Shown: piece after piece, positions 13,242-44,403 of the stretch
How positions within the stretch are numbered: the first letter of the stretch is position 1
Layout: each line of letters begins with the position of its first letter
Assembly: GCF_013368755.1 (NCBI RefSeq)
Contig: NC_049562.1
Coordinates: forward strand, 248,001 to 312,000
Direction: 5' to 3'
From: Talaromyces rugulosus
Taxonomy: Eukaryota; Ascomycota; Eurotiomycetes; Eurotiales; Trichocomaceae
DNA length: 64,000 nt
Notes under the pieces: model-generated
What the model was told of the DNA's origin: nothing
Databases searched by the model: none
Seen by the model: only the letters and a program-made list of their open reading frames with translations
Made by a program: the position numbers and the translations under genes

Positions 13242-14087
13242 ATGACGCTACTCGCGTCGCATATCATCTGCATTCTTTTTTTTTCTGTGCTATCGTTGGC
13301 ATGCTCCAACATGTCTGCCACACTGCCCAGCGTCGTCCTCGTCCCCGGGGCTTGGACTGCACCGAAAGCATACCACAAGCTAATTGCTGCCTTGGAGGAG
13401 AACGCGTTCCAAGTGCACGTTCCAGCGCTGCCCACGAATAACGGCCAACAACCACCAAACTCGACCTTCGATGCTGACATACAGGCTGTCCGCGATGCCG
13501 TACAGCCTCTGGTCGACGCCGGCCAAGACGTCGTCCTGCTGATGCATTCATACGGCGGCATTGCCGGCACCAGCGCCATCAGAAACTTGACCCGCAAGGA
13601 CCGACAGGCGAGGAACCTCCCCGGGGGTGTTGTCAGTCTCATCTACGCGGCCGGATTCATGCTCAGCGAAGGCCAGACGATTCGCACCGTGGTGCACGCC
13701 GTCAACCTGCCCGGACGAAACTCGCTCGTGCAATTCAGCAGCGACAACAGCACCTGGTTTCCCATCGACCCAATCTGGCTCCTCTATTTCGACTTGCCCC
13801 CCGCGGATCAAGAGGAGCAGGTTCAGCTGTTGAAATGGGGCAATGCGGCCATTCTGACGGGGCAGACCACCTACGCTGCCTGGAAAGACGTGCCGACGCT
13901 TTACATTCAATCGTTGAAGGATCGTTGGCTGCCGCCCGAGTTCCAGGACTTCTGCCTTCATAACGCAGCCGATGCTGGAGTGCCGGTCCGCATCGCGGCC
14001 CTCGATTCAGGTCATTCACCGTATGTCAATTTCGCGGCTGAGTTGGCCCAGATGACTTTGGAAGTTGCCCTGGCCCATGTATCATAG
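13242..14087 (+). CDS. alpha/beta hydrolase (EstC-like esterase)
   Basis: A single exon encodes 281 residues. It is an alpha/beta-hydrolase fold protein: VVLVPGAWTAPKAY holds the oxyanion strand, the nucleophile elbow is MHSYGG (Ser in H-S-Y-G-G), the likely Asp lies in SLKDRWLPPE, and the His lies in DSGHSPYV near the C-terminus. The first 20-odd residues (LASHIICILFFSVLSLACS) look like a signal peptide or anchor. A second ATG at 13311 would give a cytosolic form without it. Such enzymes cleave small esters or lactones. It sits next to the ammonia-lyase gene and shares a promoter-side position with the putative cluster, so a tailoring role is possible but unproven. The GC-rich codon use differs from the AT-rich region to its left. 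Confidence 0.85.
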   Translation: MTLLASHIICILFFSVLSLACSNMSATLPSVVLVPGAWTAPKAYHKLIAALEENAFQVHVPALPTNNGQQPPNSTFDADIQAVRDAVQPLVDAGQDVVLLMHSYGGIAGTSAIRNLTRKDRQARNLPGGVVSLIYAAGFMLSEGQTIRTVVHAVNLPGRNSLVQFSSDNSTWFPIDPIWLLYFDLPPADQEEQVQLLKWGNAAILTGQTTYAAWKDVPTLYIQSLKDRWLPPEFQDFCLHNAADAGVPVRIAALDSGHSPYVNFAAELAQMTLEVALAHVS

Positions 14088-14616
14088 GTCGACGTCCGGT
14101 GCGCTCAAGTACGATAGACTTTCGTGTCATTCTGATGAAACAAACTTCTTACTATACCTCAGTCCTTGTGCATATATCTATGCCAGCAGGTCCTAATATT
14201 CCTCGTCATCCGGCCACGTAGGGGCAATCTAGGACCACCCCATGAGAGACTCTCTTTCTATCTGGCTTTTAGACTATCTCGAAAGCCTTGTAGAACAGCA
14301 GGTCACAATTAGGTCCAACAATACTACGCGTTTTATATGATACCAAGATCCCTGATCAAGTCGTGTGATACCCCTTTTCCACAGACGTCAACGCATATAC
14401 AACAGGCCTGAAAACAACAGAATGTTATTACCTCTGTTAAGTTATTGGCACATAACCTCAGCCGTAGTGAAACAAATTCAAAGCCACTAGAACATGCCTG
14501 GGAGATGTCGACATGGTCATACAAGTCTCAATGCTTTCAGAAGAGCCTGCTATTCGACATTACTAGCCTACGGATAGACCATCTGTAAAATTCCACTTTC
14601 TTTGATTTCGATTGAA
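14088..14616. other. intergenic, convergent 3' ends
   Basis: This is the 3' flank shared by the hydrolase and the ammonia-lyase gene. No gene, repeat or clear RNA was recognised. Confidence 0.6.
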
Positions 14617-16919
14617 CTACAGTGAATCTCTCAGAATATCCACGGCCACCTTGGCTAGCACCCCATCCCGCAACGCACGATACACAACCCCCGTATACGA
14701 ACCCACAGTCGGCGCCTCGACGCCGCCATGCAACCACGACTCATCCGCCGTGGGTGTCGATAGATTCCGCGTTGCTAGCAGAGGAACCCCCAGCGTCCGC
14801 CGCAGAAACACATACATCGCCCTGGACGCCGTCCCGAGAACGTCGGCCGCATCACCGTGAACCAGATACGCGTCCCGGTGCGCGCACCACGCATCGTGCA
14901 AGGAAGCGCCGAGGGCCTCGGTGAAGCGTTGGAGACGCGGGATGAAGTCAGCTGCCGTCTTGAAATCTGCGTGGTCCAGAAGGACGGACCGCAGCGACTG
15001 TGCCATGGCTGGGAAGCGCTGTTGGGCGTCCATCCTGGTTGTCGTTTCGAAGGCGGCGAGCAGTTGCGTCCAGAGCAGCTCCGAGAGCGGTTTGGGATCG
15101 ACTAGCTGTAGTTGAGGGTCAGATATTACACCGTGTGGAAGATTCGCCGAGGCCTCATCTGGCAGTGGTGTATCTGCAGCGTAATATGCGTCGACCAAAT
15201 GCAAGAACTCCGGACGATACCCTTCTAGGAACTGCACATGCATAGCGCGTAGATCCAGGGCCTGGCACACGGCGATAAAGTGAGCGGCCATTAGCTGCGA
15301 GAGAACCTCGTTGGCGGTGTGCGTGTATCGAGCCGATATCAGCGCCAGCGAGTTCAGGGACTGGTTTCCCATCTCGGCCGTCTGCACGTGGTTGACCGGG
15401 CTGGCCAGGAATCCCAGCTCGGCGGCCAAGGAAGCAATGTTGAGATCTGTTCCCTTGAAGATCAGTGAGATGCCGGGGTCTTCTGTGACTAGGTTCGGCG
15501 GAAGGCCTCGGTTTGTGGCCGGATTGATGATTTCCGTGCACTGCGAAAAGAGCATGCGGCCGATCCCCTGAATCCCCTGCCTCGCTTTCTCCATGGCCGA
15601 TGTCACGCACTTGGCCTGGAAATTGCCCCCGTGGATAAAGTCGCCCTCGGGGGTCACTAGCGGGTTATCAGTGGCCGAGTTGCATTCGGTGTAGACTTGA
15701 TGGTGGGCGAGGCTCAGATCTTCTAGGATGGGACCCAGCCATTGTGGCGCCGTTCTGATGGAGTATCGATCCTGGCGAAGCGAGGAGTGGGCGCCGTCGT
15801 TGACTTGGGTGAGCTTCGAACCTGCTAAGAACGCCAGGATGTTCCGGGCAGATTCCACCTTCACACAGACGTAAGTAACGTTCTGGGGGGAAAGGTTGAA
15901 TAAGACAACTCACCTGACCGCGATGTGGCCGTACTGCAGACAAGAATGGGTGAAAGCTCTCGACGGTCCCAGTCAGAGCCTCAACACTCATGGCAGTCAG
16001 AACCTGGGCGAGAAGAGCCAAGTTGTGGGTGTCGTGAAGAGCCAGGGCAGCCACTGCAGCCGACACGGCCGTGCCGTTGGTCATGGCCAGTCCTTCTTTG
16101 GCTTCGATCACCACTGGCTCTAGACCAGCCGTCGTGAAAGCGCTATCCGCATAGACATGTTGTTGATTATCGCTGGCGAGCACCCGGATGGTAGATTTGC
16201 CTTGGATGGCTCCACAGATGTATGACAAGGGGCTCAGGTCACCAGAAGAGGAGATGCTACCACGGAGCGGAATCATAGGAATAATGTCATGTGTTAGCAA
16301 GTCCTGCATCCGCTGGACAATAACCGGCCGGACGGCCGAGCATCCGGAAATCAACGAGTTGATCCGGATGAGGATGGACGCCCGCGCCCAGGACCGGGGC
16401 AGGTATGTGGCTTCAAGGCCAGATTCGAGGGAGAGATCCTGACGGTGCTTGGCCAGCCCCTGGCGGTGGTCTCTTTCCCCGGTTGGGAGAATACCATAGT
16501 GAAGCTCTCTGATGAGTGCCCGCTGCAATTCAACAAGTTTCTTGGTTCTGATGTCGGCGGAGCCTCCAAATCCGGTATTCACCCCTGGGGCACCAGAAAT
16601 CAGTTCAGGCAGAAATGGTCACCACCAATAGTTCGCACCATATATAACGTCCCCAGAACGCACTCTCTTTTCGAGCATGCTCAGACTCCTTTCCATAGCC
16701 TGGATAGCAGACACATCAATATCTGATCGCACGTTGTAACTACAATTCTTAATTAGACAGACGGATACTTGATAGACGATCAGTGACAAACCGCGCGACA
16801 GCAATGACATCTGGGATACGCAGCGTGTGTCCGGTCAGTACCACGGTGGCCGAGTCCGTTCCGCAGAGCAGAGCCTCCAGAGACTCCCACTCCTGTAAAA
16901 CAATATCCGAGTGATCCAT
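14617..16919 (-). CDS. PAL/HAL-type aromatic amino acid ammonia-lyase, divergent MIO site
   Basis: Exons 16919-16792, 16739-16639, 16584-15914 and 15858-14617 join to about 713 residues, the usual size of fungal phenylalanine ammonia-lyases. Landmarks in order: catalytic loop Y76 in VIYGVNTGFGGSAD, substrate-selectivity region RALIRELHYGILP, MIO region PLRGSISSSGDLSPLSYI (S189-S190-G191), QDRYSIRTAPQWLGP, NSATDNPLV and QTAEMGNQSLNSLALISAR. Members release ammonia from Phe, Tyr or His to give an aryl acrylate, using an MIO group formed from Ala-Ser-Gly. Here the tripeptide is Ser-Ser-Gly, and the selectivity pair that is His-Gln in Rhodotorula-type PAL reads Glu-Leu. So the fold and most catalytic residues are kept, but substrate and activity may differ. 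The neighbour downstream in the same direction is the DMATS gene. Confidence 0.9.
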
Positions 16920-17751: not shown

Positions 17752-19212
17752 CTATGAACCCCCCTCGGATTCGAATAAGTGTACTGGTACTTGAGGCTTG
17801 AAATAGGAAATCACCCGTACTGTGCCATCTGGCCGAATCGCATATCCAACATACGTCTGCACGCCTGCATTTTCTCTCATTGACTGCGGAGTACTGCATG
17901 AATATTTTAGTAGAATGTTCCAAACGAATGACTGAAAATAAAAGAATATTGCAAACACCCACAACAGTGTACTCATCGCCTTGATGTAGTCGGGCATGTA
18001 TTTTCCCTTCTGCCGGCCTTGAAAGTAGTCGTTCAATCCACGGATAACCGCCTCGTCGCTGGTAGAGTAATGCCGCACCGGTAGATAAATCTTCGCCACA
18101 GGCAGTGCCTCGCCGAGCCGGAACTCGACGTTGTAGAGGATTCCGGAGGTTCGATGCTCTACTGCACGCAGAGGCTGGCCTACTGCGGACACGCCAAAGA
18201 GCGCGTTCCACAGCCGGTGCAGGTCAACTAGGCCTTCGTACAGCTTCGGGTTCTGGATCCGACCTCCAAGCGTCATGATGTTGATGACCGAGTTGAAAGT
18301 GGTCTCACGGTATCGGAAGTAGATCTTGAGCCGTGACCGCAGCGGATCGATTAGATCAATAGCTAGCATCTCGTGTTCCAGCAGTGTGCTGCCTACATTG
18401 GAGCAGAAGGCGTGGAGCATGTCACCTGCCTTGAAGTTTCCCTCGGTGACGTGAGGAGCCGTACGCATAGCTTGGAAGAGCACATCTAGGTTCGACTGGC
18501 CGGATGCTTTTGCTCTCGACTTGGGGAAGAAGTACACCTTTGGCGTGATATCGGTTTCTGAACAGTCGAAAGCGTAGAAGATGCTAGAGTTGTGGTCTCT
18601 GGTATCCTTACGAAATTCACTGTTGATGTTGGGTATGCCGAAAAAGGCTTGGAAATGATGGAACCACTCCAATCTCATCGTCGGCAGTGAGCGAGCCAGC
18701 TGCTCTTGAAAGGAAGGCCCAGCACTCAAGTTTCCAGGGTCAACGGAGGTGCCTGCATGCAACCCGATCGGCTCGACCGAGTATCGTATCGTTGGCGGTG
18801 CATCCGTTGTGCCCCAGTCCCAGCTGATTTCGACCGGAGTCCCATCGTCAGTCATGAAGCTCGGCCATATGGGCGTCTCACTCTCCGCGAGTTCCGGACA
18901 AATGCCAAGGTGAGGAGCCACGGCTTCGGCGAAAAACTTCAGGTTCCGATACTGCGCGTCTGCTGGGTATCGGGCATGGTATAGGAGAACAGCAAGCGCT
19001 TTTCCGGTGTGACTAGTCCACCAGAAGCGATGGTGAACGCTCTCAAAGCTGTCGAGCTCTGAGTTCACCCGTTGCCAAATGGAAAGCTCAGGGTAGCGAG
19101 TGATTCTTGTGTCATGCTTTCGACGTTCAAGGTCTGTGAAATGGCCTTGTAAGGCGACTTCATCACGCCCGAATTGTAATTCGGGGCTTTCTTCATGTGC
19201 AGTCTGAGCCAT
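17752..19212 (-). CDS. DMATS-type aromatic prenyltransferase
   Basis: Exons 19212-17963 and 17893-17752 join to about 463 residues, normal for the dimethylallyl tryptophan synthase (ABBA-fold) family. Family motifs are visible: SFMTDDGTPVEISW with Glu128 at the position that contacts the indole or phenol, the diphosphate-binding KVYFFPKSR, RSRLKIYFRYR and AKIYLPVRHY, and the C-terminal TYVGYAIRPDG. These soluble enzymes transfer a dimethylallyl group to tryptophan, tyrosine or other aromatics without needing a metal. Whether this one uses an amino acid, a cinnamate-type acid or another aromatic cannot be told. The single intron is 69 nt, stop-free and in frame, so retaining it adds 23 mostly hydrophobic residues. 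It is divergent from the first P450, with an inverted repeat between. Confidence 0.92.
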   Translation of the reverse strand: MAQTAHEESPELQFGRDEVALQGHFTDLERRKHDTRITRYPELSIWQRVNSELDSFESVHHRFWWTSHTGKALAVLLYHARYPADAQYRNLKFFAEAVAPHLGICPELAESETPIWPSFMTDDGTPVEISWDWGTTDAPPTIRYSVEPIGLHAGTSVDPGNLSAGPSFQEQLARSLPTMRLEWFHHFQAFFGIPNINSEFRKDTRDHNSSIFYAFDCSETDITPKVYFFPKSRAKASGQSNLDVLFQAMRTAPHVTEGNFKAGDMLHAFCSNVGSTLLEHEMLAIDLIDPLRSRLKIYFRYRETTFNSVINIMTLGGRIQNPKLYEGLVDLHRLWNALFGVSAVGQPLRAVEHRTSGILYNVEFRLGEALPVAKIYLPVRHYSTSDEAVIRGLNDYFQGRQKGKYMPDYIKAMSTLLWVFAIFFYFQSFVWNILLKYSCSTPQSMRENAGVQTYVGYAIRPDGTVRVISYFKPQVPVHLFESEGGS

Positions 19213-19900
19213 GGGTACAAGTCAAAAGCTATTTCCACGACGAAGGATTGCAAATCAGGTATAATAGACAAGTATTTGAATAGCTGGGACTGAAAGACGG
19301 CTTGATATTATGCGTTCGAACTTGCCGAGACTCAGACAGGCATACTTCGAGTCCTTTTTCAACTTCTGGGAAGCCAGAAGTCAATAGCTAAGTTAAGCAT
19401 AGGCTTGCTTTTACCATTACGACCAATTGGAACGGTATATAGCATATGGATATACCACAAAACCCTTCTCCCTATCACATACTTCGAAATCAATTGTTTG
19501 CTGCGGCTGAACAGTATGTAGATGAAAGAGGCATCCCGGGGATGGTTATATTTTCCGAATGTCGGATATGAGTCCTAGATATTTACTGACCGACATTCGT
19601 ATTCTCGTCTGACATGCAGACATGATGGAGGGTGTCCGACTCACGGCCTCAGCCAGTTCCGGTCGGCTGTGCATGACATACTCTCGGCTGCATCAGGCTG
19701 TAGAAGAGCATCACTGAACATTCCTTATTTGGAAGGCATCCATGTTATCAGGTAGCATCTATAGATTACCGCTTAGGCACCAACCCAAAACAGTGGAGGC
19801 AGAGAACATAATTCATACATCCAAGTACTTTATTTCAAGAGATTTTGCTATCACAACTTACACCGTCTTAAACGACAGTCTAAACCAGCAAGAACTAGAC
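19213..19900. other. divergent promoter between prenyltransferase and P450
   Basis: No gene lies here. It is the shared upstream region of the DMATS and first P450 genes. A perfect inverted repeat in it is listed separately. Confidence 0.6.
19556..19599. promoter_or_regulatory. perfect 10-bp inverted repeat, possible regulator site
   Basis: CGAATGTCGG at 19556-19565 is repeated in reverse complement, CCGACATTCG, at 19590-19599 with a 24-nt spacer. It lies almost midway between the divergent DMATS and P450 genes. Each arm carries a CGG triplet, the half-site of Zn(II)2Cys6 dimers, and everted or inverted CGG pairs with long spacers are known for that class. No regulator has been linked to it. 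Confidence 0.45.
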
Positions 19901-24680: not shown

Positions 24681-24992
24681 ATGCTCTTTGCTTGGAGCAA
24701 TTCGTACTCTTAGGGTTATATGAATTTTTTCAAGTGATCAACTGATACTATTTGCCCGTATCCAATACGTGAGAGTGATGATAGGCATCAATTGAGTATT
24801 TGCGTAGCTGTACAAAGAAAAAGACAGACAAGGTCTGTTTGTCATATTTGACGGACATCAATCTTGGGGAACAATTTGCCATATGGAGTACCAAGCTAAT
24901 GCACGAGTTCCGTTAATTTTATTCATTTTGATTAGGATGAGAAGAAATGTAATTCAGTGGCTTCAGCCTAAACGAATGGGCGAAACTCAGAT
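24681..24992. other. intergenic, convergent 3' ends
   Basis: Shared 3' flank of the second P450 and the SDR gene. Nothing else was seen. Confidence 0.6.
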
Positions 24993-25988
24993 TTAAGCCT
25001 TCTTGCCAGAGAGCTCAAGGTACTGGCCGGCAACGTCAACAACCATGTCCTCATACGTCTTGAAAGTGAAGTTCAGATCAATCTCGGTCTGATGCGCATT
25101 CCAATTGACGGGTACAGTCGGCTGATTTCCCTGCTTGAATGTGCCGTCCGCAACAGCCTCGGGAAAGTGCTTCTGGACGGCGGTCCAAGCATCGTTGAAG
25201 TCGTGGACCGTGGTGACACCAAAATTCCCGGACATGCCCTCTTTCAATCCAGCTAGATGCACCTTGGCAGCATCATCCACATGGGTGGCGCCTGCTGGCA
25301 TAGGGTTAGGGGCAGACTGGCCAGTGATGGCTCCTAGCAGGATGCGATTGGTTCCAGCATAGAGCTCCTTGGCATCTAGGGCCCGGTCATCGCGGCCAAA
25401 GACGAAACCGGGGAAGACATTGACCACGGTGAAGGACGGCTTTTTCTCGTTGATGAACCGCTCGGTGAAGTTCAGCGCTCCGATCTTGCCGGCACTGTAT
25501 GCGGGGAGGATCGAGTCAAAAGGGCCCGGCAGGTCCGGCACCCTGGTCTCGGCTGTGATTTCCTGGCTGGGGTCGGGAGGGAAGGGTGTGTTTGCGAAGA
25601 CTGAAGACGTAATGACCACCTTCTTCACTGATGGCTCCTTGGATGCGGAGACCAGGAGGGTGCTGACACCCTTGATGTTTGGTTCGTAAATGCCAGTCTG
25701 CGGGTCTAGGAATGGTGAGGGGAGAGGAGACGCGAGGTGAATGACATAGGTCACGCCTTTGATAGCCTCATCGTACGCGCCGTCGCGGGTGATGTCTGGA
25801 ACCTCGATCAAGGACAGATTGTCCGCCTTGTTTGACGCAGTGATCTTGGGGTGCGAGGCCAGTGTTTCGCCTTTCTCGGAGGAGCGAACAGCAGCTCGCA
25901 CCGTGTACCCCTCCTGGAGGGCTCCGAGGAGGACTTTGAAGCCAATGAAGCCGGTAGCACCGGTGATGAGAAGGTCTGCGGATGACAT
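24993..25988 (-). CDS. extended SDR, dihydroflavonol-reductase/GRE2-like
   Basis: A single exon encodes 331 residues, starting at the ATG at 25988; an upstream in-frame TTG is not a likely start. The N-terminal LLITGATGFIGFKVLLGAL is the GxxGxxG Rossmann motif of extended short-chain dehydrogenases, with RAAVRSSEKGE for NADP phosphate contact. The active site is Ser in VITSS and Y-S-A-G-K (YxxxK). The members of this branch (dihydroflavonol reductase, cinnamoyl-CoA reductase, GRE2 methylglyoxal reductase) reduce carbonyls with NADPH in the cytosol. In a cluster with an ammonia-lyase a reductase of the cinnamoyl/flavonol kind is notable, but the exact substrate is not known. It is divergent from the FAD oxidoreductase, with about 840 nt between them. 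Confidence 0.88.
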   Translation of the reverse strand: MSSADLLITGATGFIGFKVLLGALQEGYTVRAAVRSSEKGETLASHPKITASNKADNLSLIEVPDITRDGAYDEAIKGVTYVIHLASPLPSPFLDPQTGIYEPNIKGVSTLLVSASKEPSVKKVVITSSVFANTPFPPDPSQEITAETRVPDLPGPFDSILPAYSAGKIGALNFTERFINEKKPSFTVVNVFPGFVFGRDDRALDAKELYAGTNRILLGAITGQSAPNPMPAGATHVDDAAKVHLAGLKEGMSGNFGVTTVHDFNDAWTAVQKHFPEAVADGTFKQGNQPTVPVNWNAHQTEIDLNFTFKTYEDMVVDVAGQYLELSGKKA

Positions 25989-26829: not shown

Positions 26830-28745
26830 ATGTTTTCGTCCGTCAAGATTCGTCACTTGTTCGTACATTCGCTGCTCCTGCTTCCTTTGGCAGTGGCGCA
26901 GAATTCAACCTATTCAACGTCCACTTGTCGTTGCATCCCAGGAAATCACTGTTGGCCAGACCTCCACACATGGTCCCAACTAAATCGTACCATACACGGA
27001 AGACTAATCAAAACAACCCCCCTCGCATCAGTGTGCCACAAGCCATATTATGACGAGGAAGCATGCAATTCTCTAGCAGAAGCGTGGTCGCTGCCTCAAA
27101 CTCAGTACGTGTGACCCTGCAGTGCCTCACGATTGGAATTGGGCTGTACTAATCCTAGACCAGATATCCCCATCCATCTGAGATCATGTCTCCCTACTGG
27201 CAGAATAAGAGCTGTGACCCATTCACATCTCCGTCCAATCCATGTACGCTCGGCAATTACGTCGATTATACGGCCAACATCAGTTCTGCCGAGGATGTTT
27301 CACAAGCACTGCAGTTCGCACAGAAACACAATGTCCGTGTGGTTATCAAGAATACTGGACATGAGTGAGCTTACTTCCCTTATATATACAACTGCAGTTA
27401 ATAACCAATCGTTTGCAGTTACGTTGGGAAGTCGACTGGAAAGGGGTCTCTGGGTCTTTGGACTCATAACCTGAAGCATATGGAATTCCTCAATTATTCC
27501 AGCACAGAATATACTGGACCTGCAATGAAGATGGGAGGTGAGTAGCATGAACTTCTACCCTCTTAAGTGATATACTAAGACCCTGCAGCCGGAGTTCAAG
27601 CCTTCGAAGCCTATACAGCAGCGGCGTCTCATGGCCTCCGTATTGTGGGGGGTGCCTGTGCCACTGTTGGCCTGTCTGGTGGATTTCTTCAGGGGGGTGG
27701 TCATTCCCTCCTGAGCTCAACGTATGGGATGGCCGCAGACCAGGTTCTCGAATGGGATGTAGTCACCGCTAATGGAACGCACCTTATCGCTTCGCCCACC
27801 GAGAACAACGATCTCTATTGGGCTCTGAGCGGAGGTGGCGGCGGCACGTACGGTGTTGTCATTTCGGTAACTATGAAAGCTTTCCAGGACGGCATCGTCG
27901 GGGGTGCATTTCTCCAATTCAACAAGACGGACACGACAGACGACCAGTTCTGGAAAGCGGTCGAAGAGTTCTTTGCTTGGGTCCCCGATATGGTGGACTC
28001 TGGAAGCACCGCTCTCTTCTCTCTGTCCAACACCAGCTTTGTGGTCGTTCCTCTGACCGCACCAGGAAAGAGTGCAGATGAGGTGCAGGATCTGCTCCAG
28101 CCTTTTCTGTCCAAGATCGATGAACTCGGCGTGCCGATAAGCACCTCTATCACTTCATTTCCCACATATCTGGAGCATTTCGACCACCATCTGGGACCCT
28201 TGCCCAATGGTCTTCCGTTTATCAACATCGTCGATGTCTCTATTGGCGGACGACTGATCCCACGCAGGGTACTCGAGAACACCGCATCAAACCTAGACTT
28301 TGTGGAAGCGCTGAAGCTCAGCGTGCAACCTGGAGGCAAGTACCAGACAGGAGGCGTCGCAATCAACGCAGCACACTCAGTTGCGGGCAACGATCCGTCC
28401 TCCAATGCCGTGTTGCCCGCGTGGCGTGACAGCCTCGTGCAGATCCTGGCTTTCGCGCCGTGGGACTTCAAGGCGTCCTTGAGCAGCAACCTGGCTGGCG
28501 ATGATTACCTCAACCAGGTGACGGTGCCCGCGCTGACAGCGGTGGCGCCCGAGACCGGTGCTTATCTGAATGAAGCAAACCTCCAGCAGCACCACTGGCA
28601 GCGTGCCTTCTACGGTGCCAACTACGACCGGTTGCGCCGCATCAAGAAGATATATGATCCTCAAGACCTATTCTTTGCTAATACCGCGGTGGGTAGTGAA
28701 GCGTGGACACCAGATGACGAGGGACGGTTGTGTAGAAGTGCTTAG
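26830..28745 (+). CDS. secreted BBE-type FAD-linked oxidoreductase
   Basis: Exons 26830-27104, 27164-27364, 27419-27537 and 27589-28745 join to about 583 residues. An N-terminal signal peptide (LFVHSLLLLPLAVAQ) is followed by the CRCIPGNHCWP motif common to fungal members. The PCMH FAD domain has the flavin-linking His158 in VVIKNTGHDY and a Cys222 in GGACATVGLSGGFLQGGGHS, the pair used for bicovalent FAD in berberine-bridge-like enzymes. The C-terminal BBE segment FYGANYDRLRRIKKIYDP is complete. Such enzymes oxidise alcohols, amines or C-H bonds with O2, acting outside the cell or in the secretory path. Several fungal alkaloid and polyketide clusters carry one. It is followed in the same direction by the methyltransferase gene. 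Confidence 0.92.
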
Positions 28746-29444: not shown

Positions 29445-30408
29445 ATGCCCGAGGAATATCCTCTTTCTAGAGATTATGTCGACTTCAATCGGTATGTTGA
29501 GTACCTCCTTTAAAATGATAGGGTATGGTTAATCGTGGACGAAGACTCAATCTTCAGCACTACATCTGGAAAGATATGTTTGGATACAGCCTACATCCGA
29601 AGATCCCACGAAATCAAAAGTCGTTGAAGATTGCAGACGTTGGCACAGGAACTGGGTATACACACACCTGCATCAGAACAATCCGGAGCCAGCGTTAACA
29701 GTTTCCAGGATCTGGCTACTAGATCTATTGCCGCAACTCGATCCATCCACGGAGCTCGTTGGCATAGATGCCGACATTACACAAGTTGGGCCTCGAGAGT
29801 GGCTCCCAGAAAACCTGACCCTGAGGCAATGGAGTGTATTCACAGACGTACCAGATGATCTCGTCGGGGCCTTTGACATTGTAAATCTTCGCCTTTTCGC
29901 CTTTGTGATTGAAGACGACGCGACACTTTTACTGCGGAAACTGAAGAAATTATTGAGTGAGTTTCGCCCCTCTACGATCGAGATGAGGACTGACACATCA
30001 CCAGAGCCTGGCGGATATTTACAGTGGTGCGACGTCGATGTTCTATCCTTCCGTATCAACACCGCCTCATCAAATGTATCTACGCATCATCTCGTACAGC
30101 TTTGGGAGCAAACTATGCCCAAAGAGGCACGACTCTTCCCGGCCTGGGTCAAGGGGCTACCAGAAAGCTTCGAAAACGAGGGTTTCCTAGATATCACCAC
30201 GGACTGGCAGGCACAAAAGGGTCATACAGGCATTGCGATGCACTGGTGCAACTTGCCTATACACGAGATGCTCGCTGACAGGCTGAGAGAATCGGACCCG
30301 GAGAAATCACCGAAGATTAGGGAAGTGATGGAAGCAGCTTCAGTAGAGTCGCGCAAGGGCGCTATGTACGCATTCGACAGGCTGGTCGTGGTCGGCCAAA
30401 AACCATAG
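29445..30408 (+). CDS. LaeA-like SAM-dependent methyltransferase
   Basis: Exons 29445-29491, 29545-29655, 29709-29956 and 30005-30408, split by introns of 48-53 nt, join to about 269 residues. After the short start (MPEEYPLSRDYVDFNRLNLQHYIW) comes the SAM motif I IADVGTGTGIWLLDL, then ELVGIDAD (acidic end of beta 2), FDIVNLRLFAF, and KPGGYLQWCDVD (motif after beta 5). This is the Rossmann layout of the LaeA/UMTA family, which includes cluster tailoring enzymes and global regulators. It lacks the long N-terminus of LaeA itself, so a tailoring O- or N-methyltransferase is the better guess. Its place directly after the FAD oxidoreductase fits that. The acceptor is unknown. Confidence 0.88.
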
Positions 30409-30579: not shown

Positions 30580-31787
30580 TTATATTTTAGCTTCATATGC
30601 CAGCACGGCTGGAAGTTTCACTCCTCCCACTTTGAGATCTTTCCACTCAATGGGCACGTAGTCCTCAACATCCGGCACCGGACCCATCGGCGTGATGGCC
30701 TTAGGGTTGATGTCATAGTGGCTCTTGGTATACTGCTTGTTCTTAGTAATCTACGTAAACTAGCTCGAGAGGTCGCACTTACATTCTCCTTTATATGTGT
30801 GAAATCGGTCGTCTCCTTGAACCCAGGCACTCGCCAATAGAGGTGGATCAGCCAATTGTTCAACACCGGATAGTCATGTCTTATGGTCCCCAGGTTGCAT
30901 TTGAAATGCTGGACATACACCGGGTCGAACCGAATCACAGTGGCAAATAGTCGGATATCAAGTTCTGTCAGTTCTTTCCCCAAGACAAAAGGCCCGCCGT
31001 TGTCATAGATGACACGCTCGATTTTGTTCAGCGCAGCGAACACGGGGACAACGTTCTTATCATATGTTTCCTGAGAATCGGCAAAACCGGCTTTGTAGAC
31101 ACCACTGTTGATGTCCTTCTGCATCCATTCGCCAATAGAGTCGATCTGAGGGCGGAGATGCTCAGGGTACAAATCGAGTTTGGCTAGATCGGGGGAGATG
31201 AGGGAATTGAAAGCGGTAGGAAGCCATCTCAATAGTTCAAGACTTTCCTATTTCATGCCACTCTCACGGTTAGTCTTCAAGGCAAATATGGCAAGCTTTG
31301 CAGTCGGGGGTGTCAATATGTACGTTGTTCACAGCAGTGTTGGTCTTCTTATCCCACAGCAGCGGCACTGAATACCGCCCCTTGTAATCCTTGTCAGCCC
31401 TGAAATAGACATCGTGCAAGTATTCGCTGCCGTAGAGCTTGTCGACCGTTGCGCCCTCATATTCATGCTCGTCTGCAGGGAATTTCCACCCTGGCCACCC
31501 TTTCGCGTCACCCTTGGGATATGGTCGAACTATCGATATGTCGATAATATCCTGCAGACCTTTCAAGTGGCGCACGAGATTGGCGCGATGGGCAAATGGA
31601 CAGAACAAGCCTTTTGGTTTCAATTGCGACAAGTCAGACCAGCTCGAGAAAGCACGTCGCGGGGTTGTTTACCAATGTACAGATGATACCGCCCCGCTTC
31701 GGGCTGGAATTCGCCGTCAGGCTTGATGATGCCGTGCCAGCCATCTGCGGTTCCTGGCTGATGGATTTCCTGCGTTTGGTTTGACAT
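30580..31787 (-). CDS. omega-like glutathione S-transferase (Ecm4/GHR type)
   Basis: Exons 31787-31673, 31610-31324, 31247-30783 and 30732-30580 join to about 339 residues. The N-terminal RYHLYI and the redox motif LFCPFAHRANLVR (Cys42, CPFA in place of the common CPWA) mark the glutathionyl-hydroquinone reductase/Ecm4 branch. DIRLFATVIRFDPVYVQHFKCNL is the conserved C-terminal helix pair. The last exon (YTKSHYDINPKAITPMGP) restores the expected C-terminal end, so the frame that reads on past 30733 is not the real one. These enzymes remove glutathione from quinone or aryl adducts with a Cys, in the cytosol. In this setting it could reduce glutathionyl-quinones formed during aromatic oxidation, or be a housekeeping GST. 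Confidence 0.88.
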
Positions 31788-32004
31788 GGTAAACCGTCTT
31801 GAATCGAAGCTGGTGTGTGTACAGCGGTGTTCTGTGTATATTGAAGAAGTTGTGAGACAGGCTGGTGGGGATGACGACATCCCCACCAGTTAGTTGGTCA
31901 GCGCGGAATTGGCCCGCTATCAGGTTCCTACTATATTTTCAATGTTACAGTTTATATCAATTATACGTCGTATATTATTGTTACTGATGGCATATTATAC
32001 AACT

Positions 32005-33820
<1,816 letters not shown>

Positions 33821-34868: not shown

Positions 34869-37269
34869 TCAAGTCTTTCGCTCTGTCTGATCCTGTGGTC
34901 TAGTTTCAGTCATCGAAGAGTCATCGCTAGAGTCGAGCATGTTCATCTTAGCCTCTATTTTGTCATATTTTCTAAAGAAAAATAGAAAAAACACAGCCGT
35001 GATGGCCATGACGCCACTCAAGGAAGCGTATTGTACGAGAACTTTTGGGTCTTTGGAAACAGGGGATAGCGTGATTCCCAGGATTGATCCAATGCTGCAA
35101 GTGAGCAGAAAAAGAGACGAGACGATGCTGCGCATCGATTTGGGCGCTTTTGTGTATGCGTATTCCATCCCTGTGACGAAGGCGAGTAATTCGGAGAGCG
35201 CTGTTAGCGCGTAGGCAGGTATTTGCAAGAACACGTTGGCCTGTCTTTTCGTTAGTAGAGGTAAATTTTTGCTTGATATAATTGTTTAATCTTACTTCAT
35301 TAGGCAATCTTCCCCCATCACTGCAAGAGCCTTTTAGAGGATGGTCGTAGCATGGAGGGGATTTGTAGATGTCTGTAAAATAAGTATATCTTCTGCAAAA
35401 AGAGGAGTCGCACGACTCACAGTCTTGAATACCGGCAGTATACCCAATGGTACAGGCCATGGTAACGAAACCAGCCGTGATTCGGCTGATTGGCTTTGGG
35501 TTAATACGGAATCGCGAAAGGGTTGGGTAGACCACTTTTTCTCTGGGTATAAAGTCAGCTCCCGCGTCTTGATGCGGTCTCGTGAAGGAGCTTACAGAAC
35601 TGGGAGAAGGGTGAGAACAAAAATCGGACCAAAACAGCCCACTAGACACATTCATTAGCTTTGCAGGTATGTTGCAAGATCCCTGACGTACTCATGTCAT
35701 TCGGTATCCCGAAAGTTTGCATGCTTGCTGCTTGGCTAACGAAATTGCTGTTGGTCTGCCCATAGCAAATCCAGAAAATAGGACTATACACATGAGTTGC
35801 TGGGGTAGGCCGACTAGAATGAACCGCAACTTACAACACACAGCTGGTGAACATTGTTAGTTACCTGGAATGAAACATATAAAGCAGTGAAGACTCACAA
35901 AACAGTACATGCAACCAGCGCCCGCTTTAATTCCTGGACAAACTCATCGTCCCAAGGAACGACTGTTCCCGGTCTGGTTTGCGCTAAAGCTGACGGCTTT
36001 GCCGCATCGAGATTGCGACCCCCTTTGAGCCCAAGCCACAAAACTTGCGTTGCTTTGACGAGGACAGAGCCGGTCGGTTTTTGAACAACTGCAAGCAAGT
36101 TAGCATGGGGCATTTTTCGGGCGGACGATGAGAGGCGCACCATATTTTCCTCGTGCTAGAGCCAGAATCCCTGCTGTCAAAGCCCAGAAGCACAGCGGAA
36201 GCAGGAATGCGGCCCAAAAGGAGACTTTCAATTCCAACCACTAAAGGATACACTTATCAGTCATGAATCTACACTTCATAATGTGGGATATACTGACAGA
36301 GGCCGGTATCACAGAAAGCGCACCCAAGTTGATAACCCTTCGATAGAGTCAGCACCATTGATCTTCGACTTCTGACTCAGTCAGATGCATGCATTTGGTT
36401 TATGACTAACCAGTAATAACGACCGTAGATAGTCTGAATAGTAAGGTTTGGGTCTATAATAACCTTTTCTCCACCTTCGAGAGTGTGAGTTCGGAGAGGC
36501 TTTCTTGAGTATTGCTCGGCAATCAGTGGTGACACATTGCTCTTTATCCCTCCAAACCTAGCGAATCCGTTCAGCAAGAATGTTTCACGTTATGGGTCAA
36601 TATTTTGATCAAGTAGACTGACCCTAATCCGATCAGCACTAACGCAACGATCAGTCCTGGCAGCCCAGCACCCTTGTCAAGGCTCATAGGGAAAGAAGTG
36701 ACAAAAAGAATCAGTACACCACAGCTAGCGAATCTGTCACATATATTAGACATCAGTCTTCCTATTGGTTATTAATCCATGGGGTGTTTCCATACGCAGC
36801 TCCGAGACAAATTGTGCGAAAGCGGCCAAGCAAACTATCGGCCATAATAGCGCCTATTAAGGGTGCCATGTAACACCAGGCGGTAAAAAAATAATTGATA
36901 CCAGTAGCAATTGATTGGCCCTATACAAGCTCTGGTTAATTTATTTTTTTTTTTCTCATACACGACTGTGTTGAGATTCTTACCCTGCCCAGAGCTCCCG
37001 GTCTTAACGGGTCGTCGCGAGCATTTTCGACATAGTTTTCTAGAGGGGTTCAGCTTTCAGGCTTTCAACAACATGAGAAGGCAAATATTCCTACGCATAG
37101 GAGCTGTGATACAGCGGTAGGTAAAGCGCTCAGCCAGTTCGCCAATGCAGATGAGGAATATCGAAGGCGGGATCTCATCGCAGACATGTCTGAGGTTTTT
37201 CTCTTCCCATTCTGTCGGCGCAACGAAGTCGACACTGCCGTCGTCTGGTCTCTCATCAGAGGAGGCCAT
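34869..37269 (-). CDS. PTR/POT proton-coupled peptide transporter
   Basis: Fourteen exons join to about 553 residues: 37269-37095, 37039-36984, 36920-36796, 36733-36623, 36557-36411, 36337-36298, 36240-36141, 36088-35899, 35843-35835, 35783-35692, 35641-35596, 35542-35421, 35372-35296, 35240-34869. Every joint keeps the frame. PTR landmarks: GELAERFTYR in helix 1, GQSIATGINYFFTAWCYMAPLIGA, the signature GFGGIKSNVSPLIAEQY, WVINLGALSVIPA, FPIFWICYGQTNSNFVSQA and the C-terminal FLQIPAYALTALSELLAFVTGMEY. It should import di- or tripeptides with protons at the plasma membrane, or export a small product. Exon 9 is only 9 nt. Thirteen introns is extreme for a fungal gene. As neighbour of pathway-like genes it may move a peptide or amino-acid-like compound. 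Confidence 0.88.
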
Positions 37270-38222: not shown

Positions 38223-39365
38223 CTAAACTACACCAGATTGCAATACGGGCGTGTCCGCAAGGCCGATATAACCATGGCGTCCAGTAAGAGTGGCATCTGC
38301 CTTTTGGACATCATGGGATGCTCTTAAAATTGCAAATTTGCGATTATGCCAGTCAAGGCTTCTCCAGTCTTTTCCGTCACCCGCCGTGAAATTAACGTCG
38401 TGCTCTGGCCGTACTAGATAGACAATAGAGTACTTGGTCTGATTCCAAGCGTCTGGTGGAGGTACAACACGGTGCAGACAAGACTTGAGAGCACCCTTGG
38501 AGAGGGCAGTCAGAGAATCTCCGACGTTGACAATCGCATGTCCTGGTTTGGGGGCAATATACTGCCACTCGTCTAGCCCGGGCATGAGAACCTGTAGCCC
38601 TCCCGTTTGGGAAAATACAATGGCAAGAGTCCCAATATCAGTGTGTGCGATATGGCCAACGTTCTTTTCGCTACTGCCGTAAGTGAGATACCGAAGCAGC
38701 CCCAGGCTACTTGTATTTGGCACCGTGTTACGATGGGACTCCTGGAAAGGAATATGCAGTGCTTGAGACAGTGCAGAGAGAATCACAAGCCCATACTCAT
38801 GTATGTCGCCGACGAATTGTTTGAGCATTTCTCGTTGACTGGTGATTGTTTCGGGCGCTGCTAATGGCATTTTAGGGTCCAGGTCGAACAGCGCGTTATT
38901 GGCGATCTGAATAAGTACAATCAGCAAAATTGCTGCTGGCAAAATGTTTGAGCAATCCATACCATGTAACTTTCAAACCCATCTCTTTTCTCTTGAAACG
39001 GACCTGAGGCTAAACCGGCTGCTTTATATCTAATTTCGAGGAAAGCGAGCACGTCAGTAGGGTCGCTAAATGGCGCTGTGCAACACTACTCACCCATGTG
39101 TCTTGGACAATGTTGACAGTTTCTCGGTGTTGTAATACTGTTTTTCGTCCAAGGGTAGTTGGAAAGTATTTTCGGTAATTGTGACCAGTTTATCCACGTC
39201 TTCAAGGATCTTACTCGTCAACGGATCGCGAAAATCTAAGTAGAAAAAACCTACATCACGACAAGCAGTGACGAGGTCATTCGCAGTGGCAGTATCCCCT
39301 TTGACAAGCTTCGCCAATGATATAGTTGGCAGCTCTCCATAGTCAACTTCAGTCTTCGCGGCCAT
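38223..39365 (-). CDS. 2-oxoglutarate/Fe(II) dioxygenase, IPNS-like
   Basis: Exons 39365-39094, 39029-38963 and 38906-38223 join to about 340 residues. The N-terminal DIOX_N block (LPTISLAKLVKGD, CRDVGFFYLDF) and the jelly-roll core are clear. The iron triad is H201 and D203 in GHIAHTDIGTL plus H258 in KSCLHRVV. The arginine of the RxS motif that normally binds 2-oxoglutarate appears as lysine: K271-Y-S273. Such enzymes hydroxylate, desaturate or cyclise small molecules in the cytosol; isopenicillin N synthase is a relative that does not use 2-oxoglutarate. The gene is divergent from a PLP enzyme of the isopenicillin-N-epimerase type, an arrangement suggesting joint work on an amino-acid-derived compound. 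There is no ACV-synthetase-like NRPS in the window, so beta-lactam formation is not implied. Confidence 0.88.
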
Positions 39366-40252: not shown

Positions 40253-41518
40253 ATGGAAAGCAACACGGGCGTGAATGGAAACCATAAGGATTTACCACCG
40301 ACTAGCGAGTATTTCAAAGAGTGGCCTTTGCGACCGGACATAGTTCACCTTGATCATGGCTCTTGTGGAGGTTGTCCACACAAGGTCAGAAATGCTCAGC
40401 GCAAAATCAGCGATGATATCGAATACAGCCCACCTAGCTGGTTTGGCAAAAACTATGCCTCAGGACTTCGAAATTCCAAGGAAGCTCTAGCAGGTTTTTT
40501 GAATGCGAATGTTGCTGGGCTAGCGATAATGCCAGGGACAACACAAGGTCTGAATGCTGCGGCCTTTAGCCAGCATTTCAATGCTGGTGACGAGCTGCTC
40601 ATTACCAACCACGCATACAGCTCAGCCCTGTTGATCCTCAAGCACATTGCTAAGCAAGTGAATGCTCGCGTGGTCATTGCCAACGTGCCTTTCCCAGTAA
40701 AGAGCGAAGATGAAGTGGTTGAAAGTATTCTGTCTCATGTCACACCCAAGACCAAATTCGCTATCATTGATCACATCCCCAGCAGAACAGGCGTCATATT
40801 TCCTATCAAGCGTATTGTTGCCGAATTGGATAGTCGCAACGTTGTTACCTTGGTGGACGGCGCACACGCTCCTGGTCAAATTGAAGTTGACCTACGCGAC
40901 ATCAATGCGCCTTACTATGTTGCTAGTCTTCATAAATGGATGTGTGCTCCGCGAGGCCTGGGTCTTTTATATGTGCGAGAAGACAAGATTGCCAGTACCA
41001 AACCAGTCATTGTTGCGCGCACCTGTTACTACCGAGATAGCCACGCGGGAGTACACACCCAGTTTGAGCACGACTTCGACTGGATAGGCACGTTTGACCC
41101 GTCGACCTATCTCTCCTTACCAGCCATTGTGGACTTTTTGTCTACAGTCCTTCCCGGCGGTCATAGGGGACTAGTACAACGTAACCACCATGTAGCCTTG
41201 GAAGCTCGGAAGGTTATCCATCGCGAATTGGGAATCCCGCCGGCGAGTCCAGATGAGATGCTTGGGTCCATGGTCACATTTCCGCTGCCAGACACCATTG
41301 GTCCTGAAAGCCCTCAGGGGACGCTTCCTTTACAAAAGCAATTGATGGAACACTATGGAATCGAAACCCAAGTCTATAACTGGCCTCAATATCCGAAACG
41401 CGTGATGAGGTTCTCAATACAAGCACATAATAGCGTACAGCAGATAGAGTATCTGGCTCGGCACTTGAAAGCGGCTTTGAAAGTAGAGAAAACATATTTG
41501 AACGGGACAAATTCTTAG
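40253..41518 (+). CDS. class V PLP enzyme, isopenicillin-N-epimerase-like
   Basis: A single exon of 421 residues from the ATG at 40253; the frame is open further upstream but has no earlier ATG. It follows the fold-type I aminotransferase class V pattern: VHLDHGSCGGCPHKV at the N-terminus (the LDHGSxG of the epimerase-like branch), MPGTTQGLNAA (cofactor phosphate loop), VDGAHAPGQ with Asp202 and His205, and the Schiff-base Lys228 in ASLHKWMCAPRGLG. Relatives include isopenicillin N epimerase, cysteine desulfurases and the ergothioneine C-S lyase. Reaction type cannot be fixed: racemisation, C-S cleavage and transamination all remain possible. It is divergent from the IPNS-like oxygenase and precedes an unrecognised gene in the same direction. 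Confidence 0.88.
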   Translation: MESNTGVNGNHKDLPPTSEYFKEWPLRPDIVHLDHGSCGGCPHKVRNAQRKISDDIEYSPPSWFGKNYASGLRNSKEALAGFLNANVAGLAIMPGTTQGLNAAAFSQHFNAGDELLITNHAYSSALLILKHIAKQVNARVVIANVPFPVKSEDEVVESILSHVTPKTKFAIIDHIPSRTGVIFPIKRIVAELDSRNVVTLVDGAHAPGQIEVDLRDINAPYYVASLHKWMCAPRGLGLLYVREDKIASTKPVIVARTCYYRDSHAGVHTQFEHDFDWIGTFDPSTYLSLPAIVDFLSTVLPGGHRGLVQRNHHVALEARKVIHRELGIPPASPDEMLGSMVTFPLPDTIGPESPQGTLPLQKQLMEHYGIETQVYNWPQYPKRVMRFSIQAHNSVQQIEYLARHLKAALKVEKTYLNGTNS

Positions 41519-41792
41519 AGAAAAAAAATAAAGCTGGCTGTGATAATCATTTAGACAAAAGATATAGAAATTATACAATAAAGGAATCCAGAACAGTCCC
41601 AGAAAATGGGGCCGATATCGGAAATGTTTTAAAGATTCATTATAAGCTGCGTATTACCTCTTTAGCTTTCTGGTATTATTGGGGTAACGTATTGTCAGTA
41701 GCTTACAAAAACTGATAGCACTGTATAAAATGGTTCGTCTTGCTAGGCTAGTTTGCAGAGCTCGCTCCACAAATCCCCAAAAACAGGGAGGG

Positions 41793-43376
41793 ATGGCTGG
41801 CATCATACAAACTTTGCAATACATATTCTGCAACGATGATTTCGACACAGACACAGTAATTTACCTTTTCAACTATAGCCGGTAGATCCCAGAGCTAAAC
41901 AACATCTGCAGAAGCCTGAACCTGGTTACGGGAGATATCCACAGTACCAAAGCACCGCTTCCACGTCAAAAGCTGTCCGATCTACTGAATCCAACGTTCC
42001 AAGACCTATTCGACCTCGCCGTCTGGCGTGTGTCTGAAACTGTTTGCCCGAACCCAGATAACGCCCCACCTCGACTATTCCCTACCGTGGAAAAAACAAG
42101 AGATCTGTTTTTCACTCACGATGAATGGGCAAAATTTGGCGACCTGGAGTCTGAATATGGACGGCTTTGCTGGATGTTATCAAACTTTCCGGAAAGGGGA
42201 GTTCCGCTTCGTTGCATCGACACGGTTTTGGACGTACTGGCTAGTCCATGTGTTTTGAGTGCATGGAGCCAGGTTTCTGAAAGACTCAAAAGTCAAACAC
42301 ATGCTATCTTGATGGATATTGTCGACATCATGAAATCGCGACACTTACCAGTTGATTTGAAAACAGCAAAGCAGGACTTTTTAAATGTACCTGTAGACTA
42401 CGAATGCACCAGTGACCTGACCGACAACCTCTCTTTGAAGCTGTTCCAACAGAGTTCATACAGGATGTCAGCTCTTTTATTAAAAGGAGATTTCTCTCGC
42501 ATAGTCGAGTACGTGCAAATACATGCTTTTGTTCGAGATCCAATTGGCTCTTTCAAAAAGGACTTTACGCAACAAGCTATAATATTCAAAGATCTATTGA
42601 ACAGGGTGGTTCCAATGAGAACCTTCTCTGTCGACGATCAAGTCTGGACTTCGCTCCTGGCACAGATTGCGCAAGAATCTGCCTTCCTGGCGGATCCTAA
42701 GATCAACGATGTGACCTACGTGCATTTTAGTCGCCATCAACAATTGCCTTATGTTTACGTTAATCTTTACGAACTCCCACGGGCGGAGTTTAGTATCCCG
42801 GAGCATGTTGTTGAGATTATGCACGAGATTATGCAAGAATTGCTCGCCAGTGGACAATGTCACATCATTCCCATTATCGTAGCATCTATGCCATTAGTCT
42901 CCGACACCGGCAACAAGAAGCCGTCCAACATAATTGTCGATGGCAATAATCGAGCGACGGCAACAATGGTTCTTATACTACTAGCTACTGTCGGCCTTGG
43001 CAAAGCAGATGTGTTTTCTAGCTTTGACAGCTACTGCTCTACACATAATCTGAGCCTGAAGTGGCGTATAGATTTGCTTAGTGTGCTTGAAATCCTCTAC
43101 GTGGCTACAGACAGCCCCATTCTATCGTTACTTCGCGGTAAACAAGATCTCCTTTCAAAATTCAAGGATTTCACGCGCTTGCCGGGGCTCCTGGTACAGG
43201 AGCCCTTTTTCCACACAATTTGCTTGCAGCGGTCGGTTACGGGGAACAAGCCGCATCTTCTCCAGCCAATACACCAGATTATACATAACGACGACAGTTG
43301 CGGTCTTGCCCTCCCAGCACGGCGCTCGCAGGCCCATGGAAGACCCAAAGATTACATTCTCCTTCCACTAGAATAG
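41793..43376 (+). pseudogene. unrecognised gene with one in-frame stop
   Basis: A frame with coding character runs to 43376 and continues in the same phase back to the ATG at 41793 (and one at 41730), but a TAG at 41883-41885 interrupts it. Without that codon it would be about 527 residues. A TATAAA at 41724-41729 precedes the nearer ATG. A 30-nt intron (41856-41885, GT-AG, in frame) would remove the stop, but is shorter than normal fungal introns. I do not recognise the family. The protein is mostly helical, soluble and rich in charged residues, with one conspicuous motif near 42927-42968, SNIIVDGNNRATATM. This loosely recalls the DGNHR loop of ParB/sulfiredoxin-fold proteins, a weak resemblance only. 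It follows the PLP enzyme by about 270 nt on the same strand. Confidence 0.55.
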
Positions 43377-43809
43377 GCAATTTGCGTACTTCCTTCTCCA
43401 ACTTATTGTGACTTGATTGTACATATATCGATAAGAATGTCGCCATCCTTTATGTTTGGTTATACTTTCCTACAATGACTTCAGAATGACACCGAACGGT
43501 ATGGCAATTTTGTTGGAACTTTGGCTTCTCATAAAACTACTCACACCGTTGAACATATATTCCTCACCAAGTACTAGTCAAGAGTTCAAATAAACAAAAG
43601 GGGATCTTTGGGGGGAAAAGAAGAAGAAGAAGAAGCTAGTATAACAATCCCTGCATGTTATATATTACGGACCCCGGTTCCGGGAACTCGACTCCGGAAC
43701 CGGCACCCAATTGGAAGCTAACATGTTTCCACCTATTTTCCTTTTCTTTTCTCTTATTATTTTTGTTATCTTTGAAATTGAACAGAATTGAAAACATATA
43801 CCGTTGACA
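43377..43809. other. intergenic, PEBP promoter
   Basis: Contains a (GAA)n run at about 43616-43636 and the inverted repeat listed separately. No gene was recognised. Confidence 0.6.
43674..43703. promoter_or_regulatory. perfect 10-bp inverted repeat upstream of PEBP gene
   Basis: CCGGTTCCGG at 43674-43683 and its reverse complement CCGGAACCGG at 43694-43703 are separated by 10 nt, about 105 nt before the PEBP start codon. Each arm contains CCG/CGG triplets. It has the form of a strong hairpin or a zinc-cluster dimer site. Confidence 0.5.
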
Positions 43810-44403
43810 ATGCCCGACGTTTCTAAAATCGAGGATTTGCTGCGCGGCCTGGAGAATGGCACCTACCACACTCTGGGCCTCAGTTTAGGTTCGAAGAAGG
43901 TCACCAGTCCGGGGCTGCAGATAGCTAAGAAGGGTAAGAAATCCATACTGATTTTCTTCCTGGGTCAGATAATTGCAATGGTTAACAATTTGACAGAGAC
44001 GCAGCCATCCCCAACCCTTTTCGCACCCCCCGACCTACCTCATGAAGCTACCTACACCATTATTTCTCTCGACCCCGACGCACCATTTATCTCGTGGAAT
44101 GCACTCAGTCCTATAGCTCACTGGATTCAGACTGGTTTTAAAATTGACCAGCAGCACCAACGAGAACTGAAAAGTGATGAGCGACCCATTGCGCCGTGGG
44201 CTGCTGCTGGACCGCCTCCCCTTGCGGCGCCACATCGCTATGTGTTTCTGCTCTATCATCAGAACACCGAGTCAGCCATTCCCCCGGATTTGAAGGAGAA
44301 GGAGTTTTCCATCACGCAACGGATGAGATTTGATCTTGATGCTATGGTGAACCAGCTGCAGTTGGGGGATCTTGTGGCAGTCAACTACTTTGTATCGAAT
44401 TAG
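43810..44403 (+). CDS. PEBP-family protein (phosphatidylethanolamine-binding)
   Basis: Exons 43810-43933 and 43997-44403 join to about 176 residues, normal for the family. The two PEBP blocks are present: TIISLDPDAPF (D-P-D-x-P) followed by LSPIAHWIQTG, and GPPPLAAPHRYVFLLY (the G-x-HR loop). Members bind anionic ligands such as phosphatidylethanolamine head groups; yeast Tfs1 inhibits carboxypeptidase Y. The role here is open. The 63-nt intron is a multiple of three without stops, so the unspliced reading frame also stays open and adds 21 hydrophobic residues; the spliced form matches the family better. A perfect inverted repeat sits in the promoter. Confidence 0.9.
   Translation: MPDVSKIEDLLRGLENGTYHTLGLSLGSKKVTSPGLQIAKKGKKSILIFFLGQIIAMVNNLTETQPSPTLFAPPDLPHEATYTIISLDPDAPFISWNALSPIAHWIQTGFKIDQQHQRELKSDERPIAPWAAAGPPPLAAPHRYVFLLYHQNTESAIPPDLKEKEFSITQRMRFDLDAMVNQLQLGDLVAVNYFVSN

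Follow-up and report, generated by a model that had tools for sequence, protein, structure and literature searches.

The 64,000-nucleotide window analysed here covers 248-312 kb of contig C2 (NC_049562.1) in the Talaromyces rugulosus assembly (35.76 Mb, 6 contigs), and at window positions 14617-24680 it contains four adjacent genes encoding an aromatic ammonia-lyase of the phenylalanine ammonia-lyase (PAL) type, a DMATS-type aromatic prenyltransferase and two cytochromes P450, referred to as P450a and P450b (Table 1). All four frames are intact and carry the expected motifs. Gene models came from a small gene finder that allows for splicing, for which the window and 20 stretches from the same genome served as training data, and domains were assigned through a Pfam scan of the gene products. 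The initial annotation had placed these genes in a single 31-kb cluster without nonribosomal peptide synthetase (NRPS) or polyketide synthase (PKS), running from the first ATG in a hydrolase frame (13242) up to and including a PEBP gene that ends at 44403. With our own gene models and Pfam matches, every gene class listed for that span was present and no NRPS or PKS was found among its scanned models, which bears out a cluster built on lyase, DMATS and P450 genes. The claim of one cluster holds for the four-gene core, and what connects the rest of the extent with it is closeness; the 31-kb span is over-drawn around a real, conserved and apparently uncharacterised core. That these four genes form a genuine biosynthetic unit is, in our judgement, highly probable. 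The divergent intergenic region separating DMATS from P450a is a possible shared promoter. Two 8-mers are common to three core promoter regions, but a shared regulatory word was rejected, as this number is not above chance (random triples of 60 promoters had a mean of 0.82, with at least two in 15% of 2000 draws; P 0.15).

Table 1. Features of the locus in window coordinates, with the basis of each assignment
Feature	Position	Strand	Basis
Alpha/beta hydrolase, possible member	13311..14087	+	PF12697
Aromatic ammonia-lyase (PAL-type) with 4-methylideneimidazole-5-one (MIO) group, 713 aa	14617..16919	-	PF00221 Lyase_aromatic, E 1.9e-144
Lyase exons (4)	14617-15858, 15914-16584, 16639-16739, 16792-16919	-	Gene model and splice sites
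DMATS-type aromatic prenyltransferase, 463 aa	17752..19212	-	PF11991 Trp_DMAT, E 1e-95 (unspliced frame)
DMATS exons	17752-17893, 17963-19212	-	Intron from homologues
DMATS intron, 69 bp, GTGGGT...GCAG	17894..17962	-	Inferred from homologues; frame stays open, overlooked by gene finder
Divergent intergenic region DMATS/P450a, 688 bp	19213..19900	.	Gene coordinates
Cytochrome P450a, 7 exons, 507 aa	19901..21806	+	PF00067; haem motif FSFGAGPRMCIG
Cytochrome P450b, 7 exons, 506 aa	22797..24680	+	PF00067; haem motif FTFGAGARNCIG
Extended short-chain dehydrogenase/reductase (SDR), ketoreductase/dihydroflavonol-reductase type, possible member	24993..25988	-	PF01370; PDB relatives
FAD oxidase of vanillyl-alcohol oxidase (VAO)/berberine bridge enzyme (BBE) type, MtVAO615-like, unproven member	27063..28745	+	FAD_binding_4 and BBE
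S-adenosylmethionine methyltransferase-like protein, unproven member	29445..30408	+	Generic Pfam matches around cut-off; no NCBIfam match
Glutathione S-transferase and O-acetylhomoserine sulfhydrylase type (Cys_Met_Meta_PP), unproven members	30580..33820	-	Falsely joined model, cut by hand for family scans
PTR2 transporter	34869..37269	-	Pfam
2-oxoglutarate-Fe(II) oxygenase	38223..39365	-	Pfam
Class V aminotransferase, pyridoxal phosphate (PLP)	40253..41518	+	Pfam on open frame; gene model falsely joined to next gene
Long predicted exon	41912..43376	+	No Pfam match; model joins it to class V PLP gene, probably wrongly

The ammonia-lyase and the prenyltransferase

The lyase is identical over its full length of 713 residues to TRUGW13939_02554 of T. 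rugulosus, whose genome holds several lyase-family genes. It scores 579.7 bits against the PAL equivalog model TIGR01226 (cut-off 519.15), and the seven other models scored on it, including those for histidine lyases, bacterial tyrosine lyases and aminomutases, all remained below their own cut-offs. Residues Y76, N246, Q329, Y332, R335 and F380, which we take to be the catalytic PAL residues, are conserved. The MIO tripeptide reads S-S-G instead of A-S-G, a variant present in 7 of 63 ungapped rows of the DMATS-linked lyase group described below (P0001-P0005, P0011 and P0038, namely the window's lyase, its near relatives P0002-P0005, and sequences from Ophiocordyceps and Aureobasidium). The two positions that presumably correspond to the ring-selectivity pair of known lyases hold Glu-Leu, the Glu being E103, and PDB entry 1y2m has His-Gln. 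Classical selectivity pairs are Phe-Leu, His-Leu and His-Gln; Glu-Leu is not one of them. As Glu occupies this site in 101 of 109 ungapped listed lyases, whether DMATS-linked or not, E103 is uninformative on the lyase substrate, and its candidacy as a mark of prenyl-amino-acid use was rejected.

The prenyltransferase gene gave the one PF11991 match found in the T. rugulosus genome. Splicing out its predicted intron yields an L-F-T-P junction, as in the orthologue P0122, and the spliced protein scores above the cut-off of TIGR03429, identifying it as DMATS-type by PF11991/TIGR03429 and the ABBA fold. The gene models of four other listed orthologues (P0121 and P0123-P0125) stop where the last intron of the window's gene starts, and may miss the last exon.

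The tryptophan dimethylallyltransferase model TIGR03430 gave 130.3 bits, far short of its cut-off (740.75), and the site of FgaPT2 Lys174 holds Phe (F212); on these grounds an ergot-type tryptophan 4-dimethylallyltransferase was rejected. The site of FgaPT2 Gln343 holds Lys (K374), so that F212 and K374 together reproduce the Phe/Lys signature of 4-O-dimethylallyl-L-tyrosine synthases. This pair is not sufficient to identify a tyrosine O-prenyltransferase, because DMATS1 carries both residues. DMATS1 (8day, 8daz) and FunA (9iia) are the closest solved relatives by sequence, and free amino acids are their substrates or ligands according to the entry titles; DMATS1, which bears the name dimethylallyltryptophan synthase and whose structure contains L-Trp, ranks first by both sequence and fold. 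FunA, a free-histidine prenyltransferase, differs in having Met rather than Phe at the Lys174 site, and the lyase beside the window's enzyme is PAL-type, not of the histidine ammonia-lyase type. The product presumed for FunA, fungerin, is an ester of prenylated urocanate and thus likewise a prenylated amino acid minus ammonia. Orthologue P0122 is 32-34% identical to DMATS1 and FunA, and its single-sequence fold was unusable (predicted local distance difference test score of 32). P0239 of Aspergillus piperis, which we take to be perhaps an orthologue of TyrPT, is 42% identical to the window's enzyme.

The tandem P450s

P450a and P450b are 41% identical and each contain six introns, with the same phases (0,0,0,2,2,0) and with protein positions that differ by 13-17 residues between the two, as would be expected of an old tandem pair. 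Many P450a relatives carry the source name benzoate 4-monooxygenase, which is probably an automatic label. Three lyase records outside the linked group (P0072, P0077 and P0102, from two Aspergillus species and Talaromyces amestolkiae) have a P450 domain in their annotation as well, and possibly represent adjacent genes of clusters resembling the asperpentyn (aty) cluster. The window's P450s are only 22-34% identical to these records over 64-290 residues; this indirect comparison, in which the AtyI-like nature of the three records is itself presumed, does not support P450a and P450b as enyne-forming P450s of the AtyI type.

Recurrence of the core in other fungi

Protein searches were conducted with the lyase, DMATS and P450a, and the best 120 of 3721, 222 and 2326 matches, respectively, were used. 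The contig comparison took in 120 of 120 lyase, 120 of 120 DMATS and 72 of 120 P450 rows (P0241-P0309, P0316, P0334 and P0341); the last three were chosen for a species or contig already met, so P450 counts are slightly biased. Rows were judged to share a contig when contig sizes were exactly equal, adjacency was read from locus tags and from contigs of 9-23 kb, and family counts per contig were limited to P450 rows classed as P450a or P450b.

A failure of PAL and DMATS to co-occur in other genomes had been set beforehand as the observation that would speak against the cluster. Co-occurrence was found, with 34 of the 120 listed lyase rows lying on a contig that also carries a DMATS relative, at neighbouring locus tags. 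Among the matches listed, at least two of the four core families occur on 49 contigs and at least three on 16. Adjacent or near-adjacent locus tags were detected in Eurotiales, Xylariales, Hypocreales, Helotiales and Dothideomycetes. Because relatives of the lyase, DMATS and P450s recur together on other contigs, the core is more than a chance neighbourhood.

Several of these contigs show the arrangement directly. Three consecutive tags cover lyase, DMATS and P450a in Xylaria flabelliformis (FHL15_001247-001249) and again in Aureobasidium (QM012_006362-006364), and a 9,406-base contig of Jackrogersella minutella holds lyase, DMATS and P450b. Both P450s accompany lyase and DMATS on two contigs, from Xylariaceae sp. 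FL0662B and Xylaria telfairii. A gene model of Xylaria curta runs from DMATS into lyase within a single frame, with the order and strand seen in the window. Core-family tags lie close together in Ophiocordyceps australis (CDD81_4293, 4295 and 4296), Stromatinia (EAF04_007348, 7351 and 7352), Parastagonospora nodorum (HBH98_095660 for the lyase, 095680 for DMATS) and Annulohypoxylon (ABKA04_003080 for the lyase, 3078 for P450a and 3077 for P450b), while T. islandicus has DMATS PISL3812_04536 near PISL3812_04534, a P450b 95% identical to that of the window. Lyase and DMATS also have consecutive tags in Penicillium longicatenatum, in Hypoxylon texense and in a record labelled Lasiodiplodia mahajangana. 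The last (P0021, P0161) falls tightly among Nemania in both the lyase and DMATS trees, and may be misnamed.

For 86 of the 120 DMATS rows, no lyase partner is among the matches listed. On five Xylariales contigs (rows P0129, P0142, P0299 and P0303; for example Nemania sp. FL0031 and Astrocystis), a family DMATS lies with P450b and no listed lyase, a hint that these two can work without a linked lyase.

Lyase and DMATS trees

A lyase tree was built from 115 of the 120 listed rows, leaving out P0061, P0072 and three short rows. DMATS-sharing contigs are confined to the group that contains the window's lyase (SH-aLRT 80, delimited after the tree was seen), with 33 of 74 rows inside it compared to 0 of 41 outside. 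With the five unplaced rows included (P0061 and the three short rows assigned inside, P0072 outside by default), the counts become 34 of 78 and 0 of 42 (Fisher p 2e-8). The listed DMATS link is restricted to one part of the lyase tree; lyases outside it could pair with DMATS proteins too distant to be listed.

Within this tree, the lyase of O. australis is placed among Talaromyces and Penicillium sequences. In a topology test on 42 chosen rows of the 120, grouping it with the lyase of Stachybotrys, also of the Hypocreales, was rejected (approximately unbiased test, p-AU 6.5e-6), and keeping the five other rows of the group in which it falls (including P0003 and P0004) together without it was weakly rejected (p-AU 0.042). 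The DMATS tree, consisting of the query and 107 of 120 listed rows of at least 370 aa, likewise unites O. australis with Talaromyces and Penicillium in a group of seven rows (SH-aLRT 100), and the O. australis DMATS and P450a share 75% and 83% identity, respectively, with those of the window. The plain reading of these sequences is horizontal transfer between Eurotiales and an Ophiocordyceps, although the O. australis contig may instead be a contaminant of its assembly.

Genes flanking the core

Beyond P450b lies the SDR, which could reduce a side chain, and then the BBE-type oxidase, which is closely related to the solved fungal VAO MtVAO615 (E 4.2e-133). The model at the glutathione S-transferase and sulfhydrylase is almost certainly two genes. 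Further members of the sulfhydrylase family occur in the T. rugulosus genome, and the idea of a sole copy was rejected; neither a housekeeping nor a cluster role follows from this. The solved structure closest to the class V PLP enzyme is that of the C-S lyase Egt2. A sulfur and PLP part of the pathway had also been proposed, and this was not supported, as nothing but closeness was found to connect these genes with the core, the searches of other genomes having covered the lyase, DMATS and P450a. Just beyond the span, an RGS and DEP domain protein is encoded at 47442-49198 (+), and at 55306-59243 (-) a phenol 2-monooxygenase-like FAD enzyme adjoins an acyl-CoA dehydrogenase-like protein, possibly a separate aromatic-degradation pair.

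Discussion

The initial annotation had suggested a route from an aromatic amino acid, or its aryl-acrylate, through prenylation and oxidation, and the lyase, DMATS and P450 core supports that idea. In our preferred reading, the core is a four-gene secondary-metabolite cassette. DMATS would transfer a dimethylallyl group to a free aromatic amino acid, most likely to the phenol oxygen of L-tyrosine; the lyase would then remove ammonia to leave a prenylated acid of the cinnamate type (with tyrosine as substrate, 4-O-dimethylallyl-p-coumarate), and P450a and P450b would oxidise the prenyl chain or the ring. We consider this order of DMATS, lyase and P450s an evenly balanced proposition. A more far-reaching reading, to which we would give a probability of roughly one in three, is a widespread and uncharacterised fungal pathway in which a free aromatic amino acid would be prenylated and then deaminated by a lyase that evolved with the DMATS, giving prenylated cinnamates without NRPS or PKS, from a cassette that has moved horizontally, including between Eurotiales and Ophiocordyceps. 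The SDR, BBE oxidase and methyltransferase may decorate the product in T. rugulosus, with no finding placing them in the conserved core. As compared by described residues, the enzyme shares with the 4-O-dimethylallyl-L-tyrosine synthases (SirD, TcpD, TyrPT and the lichen RiDMATS/AsDMATS) the DMATS superfamily, the Phe/Lys signature sites and a conserved Glu (PMC11443524).

The nearest published logic appears to be that of the aty cluster of Aspergillus sp. PSU-RSPG185, in which, according to PMC12356543, PAL acts first, a UbiA prenyltransferase forms 4-hydroxy-3-prenylbenzoate and a P450 forms the enyne. The statement that no fungal pathway with this gene set has been described needs qualifying in its light, since aty also combines a PAL start, a C5 prenyl group on an aromatic acid and a P450, and the passages of that paper describing its genes mention neither NRPS nor PKS. 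It differs in its UbiA prenyltransferase, where the window's core has a DMATS and two P450s; aty also includes reductases and a monooxygenase. In the window, the lyase adjoins a DMATS and no UbiA match was found among the scanned models of the span.

This precedent raises the tentative possibility that the lyase acts first here as well, making cinnamate or p-coumarate from Phe or Tyr, which would be hydroxylated and/or shortened to a benzoate before DMATS prenylates the phenol and the P450s hydroxylate the ring and oxidise the prenyl group. The aty order of PAL AtyH, UbiA enzyme AtyB and P450 AtyI (PMC12356543) is consistent with it, as are the PAL-type assignment of the window's lyase (TIGR01226) and the benzoate 4-monooxygenase names of P450a relatives, probably automatic as these are. 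Moreover, P. nodorum, which has the lyase-DMATS pair, has relatives from which 4-hydroxy-3-prenylbenzoic acid is recorded in a survey that also lists two DMATS genes in P. nodorum, one of them beside a PKS (PMC4205913). It is weakened by the free amino acids used by the two prenyltransferases closest by sequence among solved structures, by the low identity of the window's P450s to the presumed AtyI-like records, and by there being no CoA ligase or chain-shortening enzyme recognised among the scanned models of the span, although these could lie elsewhere. A route through L-Trp, with DMATS prenylating it at N1, for instance, and the lyase yielding a prenylated indole-acrylic acid, would fit the position of DMATS1 as top relative with the same Phe/Lys pair, and an acidic E103 could hold the indole NH; this route is nevertheless unlikely, given the TIGR03430 score, the agreement of the lyase with the PAL model and the presence of the same Glu in linked and unlinked lyases alike. 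An ergot or clavine cluster was rejected on the tryptophan 4-dimethylallyltransferase evidence, other ergot-pathway homologues not having been searched for. Finally, a single pathway using the full 31-kb set with sulfur handling draws on the adjacency of all of the genes and is improbable: travelling together was demonstrated for the four core families, the flanking genes being outside those searches, the BBE oxidase has a near relative in a solved fungal VAO, further genes of the sulfhydrylase family occur in the genome, and the promoter words of the core are at chance level.

Fungal DMATS genes are usually annotated as indole-alkaloid genes. One survey of Hypoxylaceae reports four DMAT genes in clusters that also contain monooxygenases and oxidoreductases, with products not deduced and alkaloids predicted, and its main text does not contain "ammonia lyase" or "ammonia-lyase" (PMC8403587); some of these clusters may be the lyase-DMATS-P450 cassette. 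The pairing of lyase and DMATS is not described in the titles and abstracts searched or in passages of PMC4205913, PMC8403587, PMC11443524, PMC12356543 and PMC8998291, a search that did not cover most subscription papers. A DMATS travelling with an ammonia-lyase suggests phenylpropenoid rather than alkaloid chemistry. The enzyme is a probable amino-acid prenyltransferase for biocatalysis, and the cassette may exemplify the passage of a cluster from one fungal class to another. With four genes, it is a simple target for expression and assay, and would give orphan loci in Xylariales and elsewhere among ascomycetes a common reaction order that can be tested.
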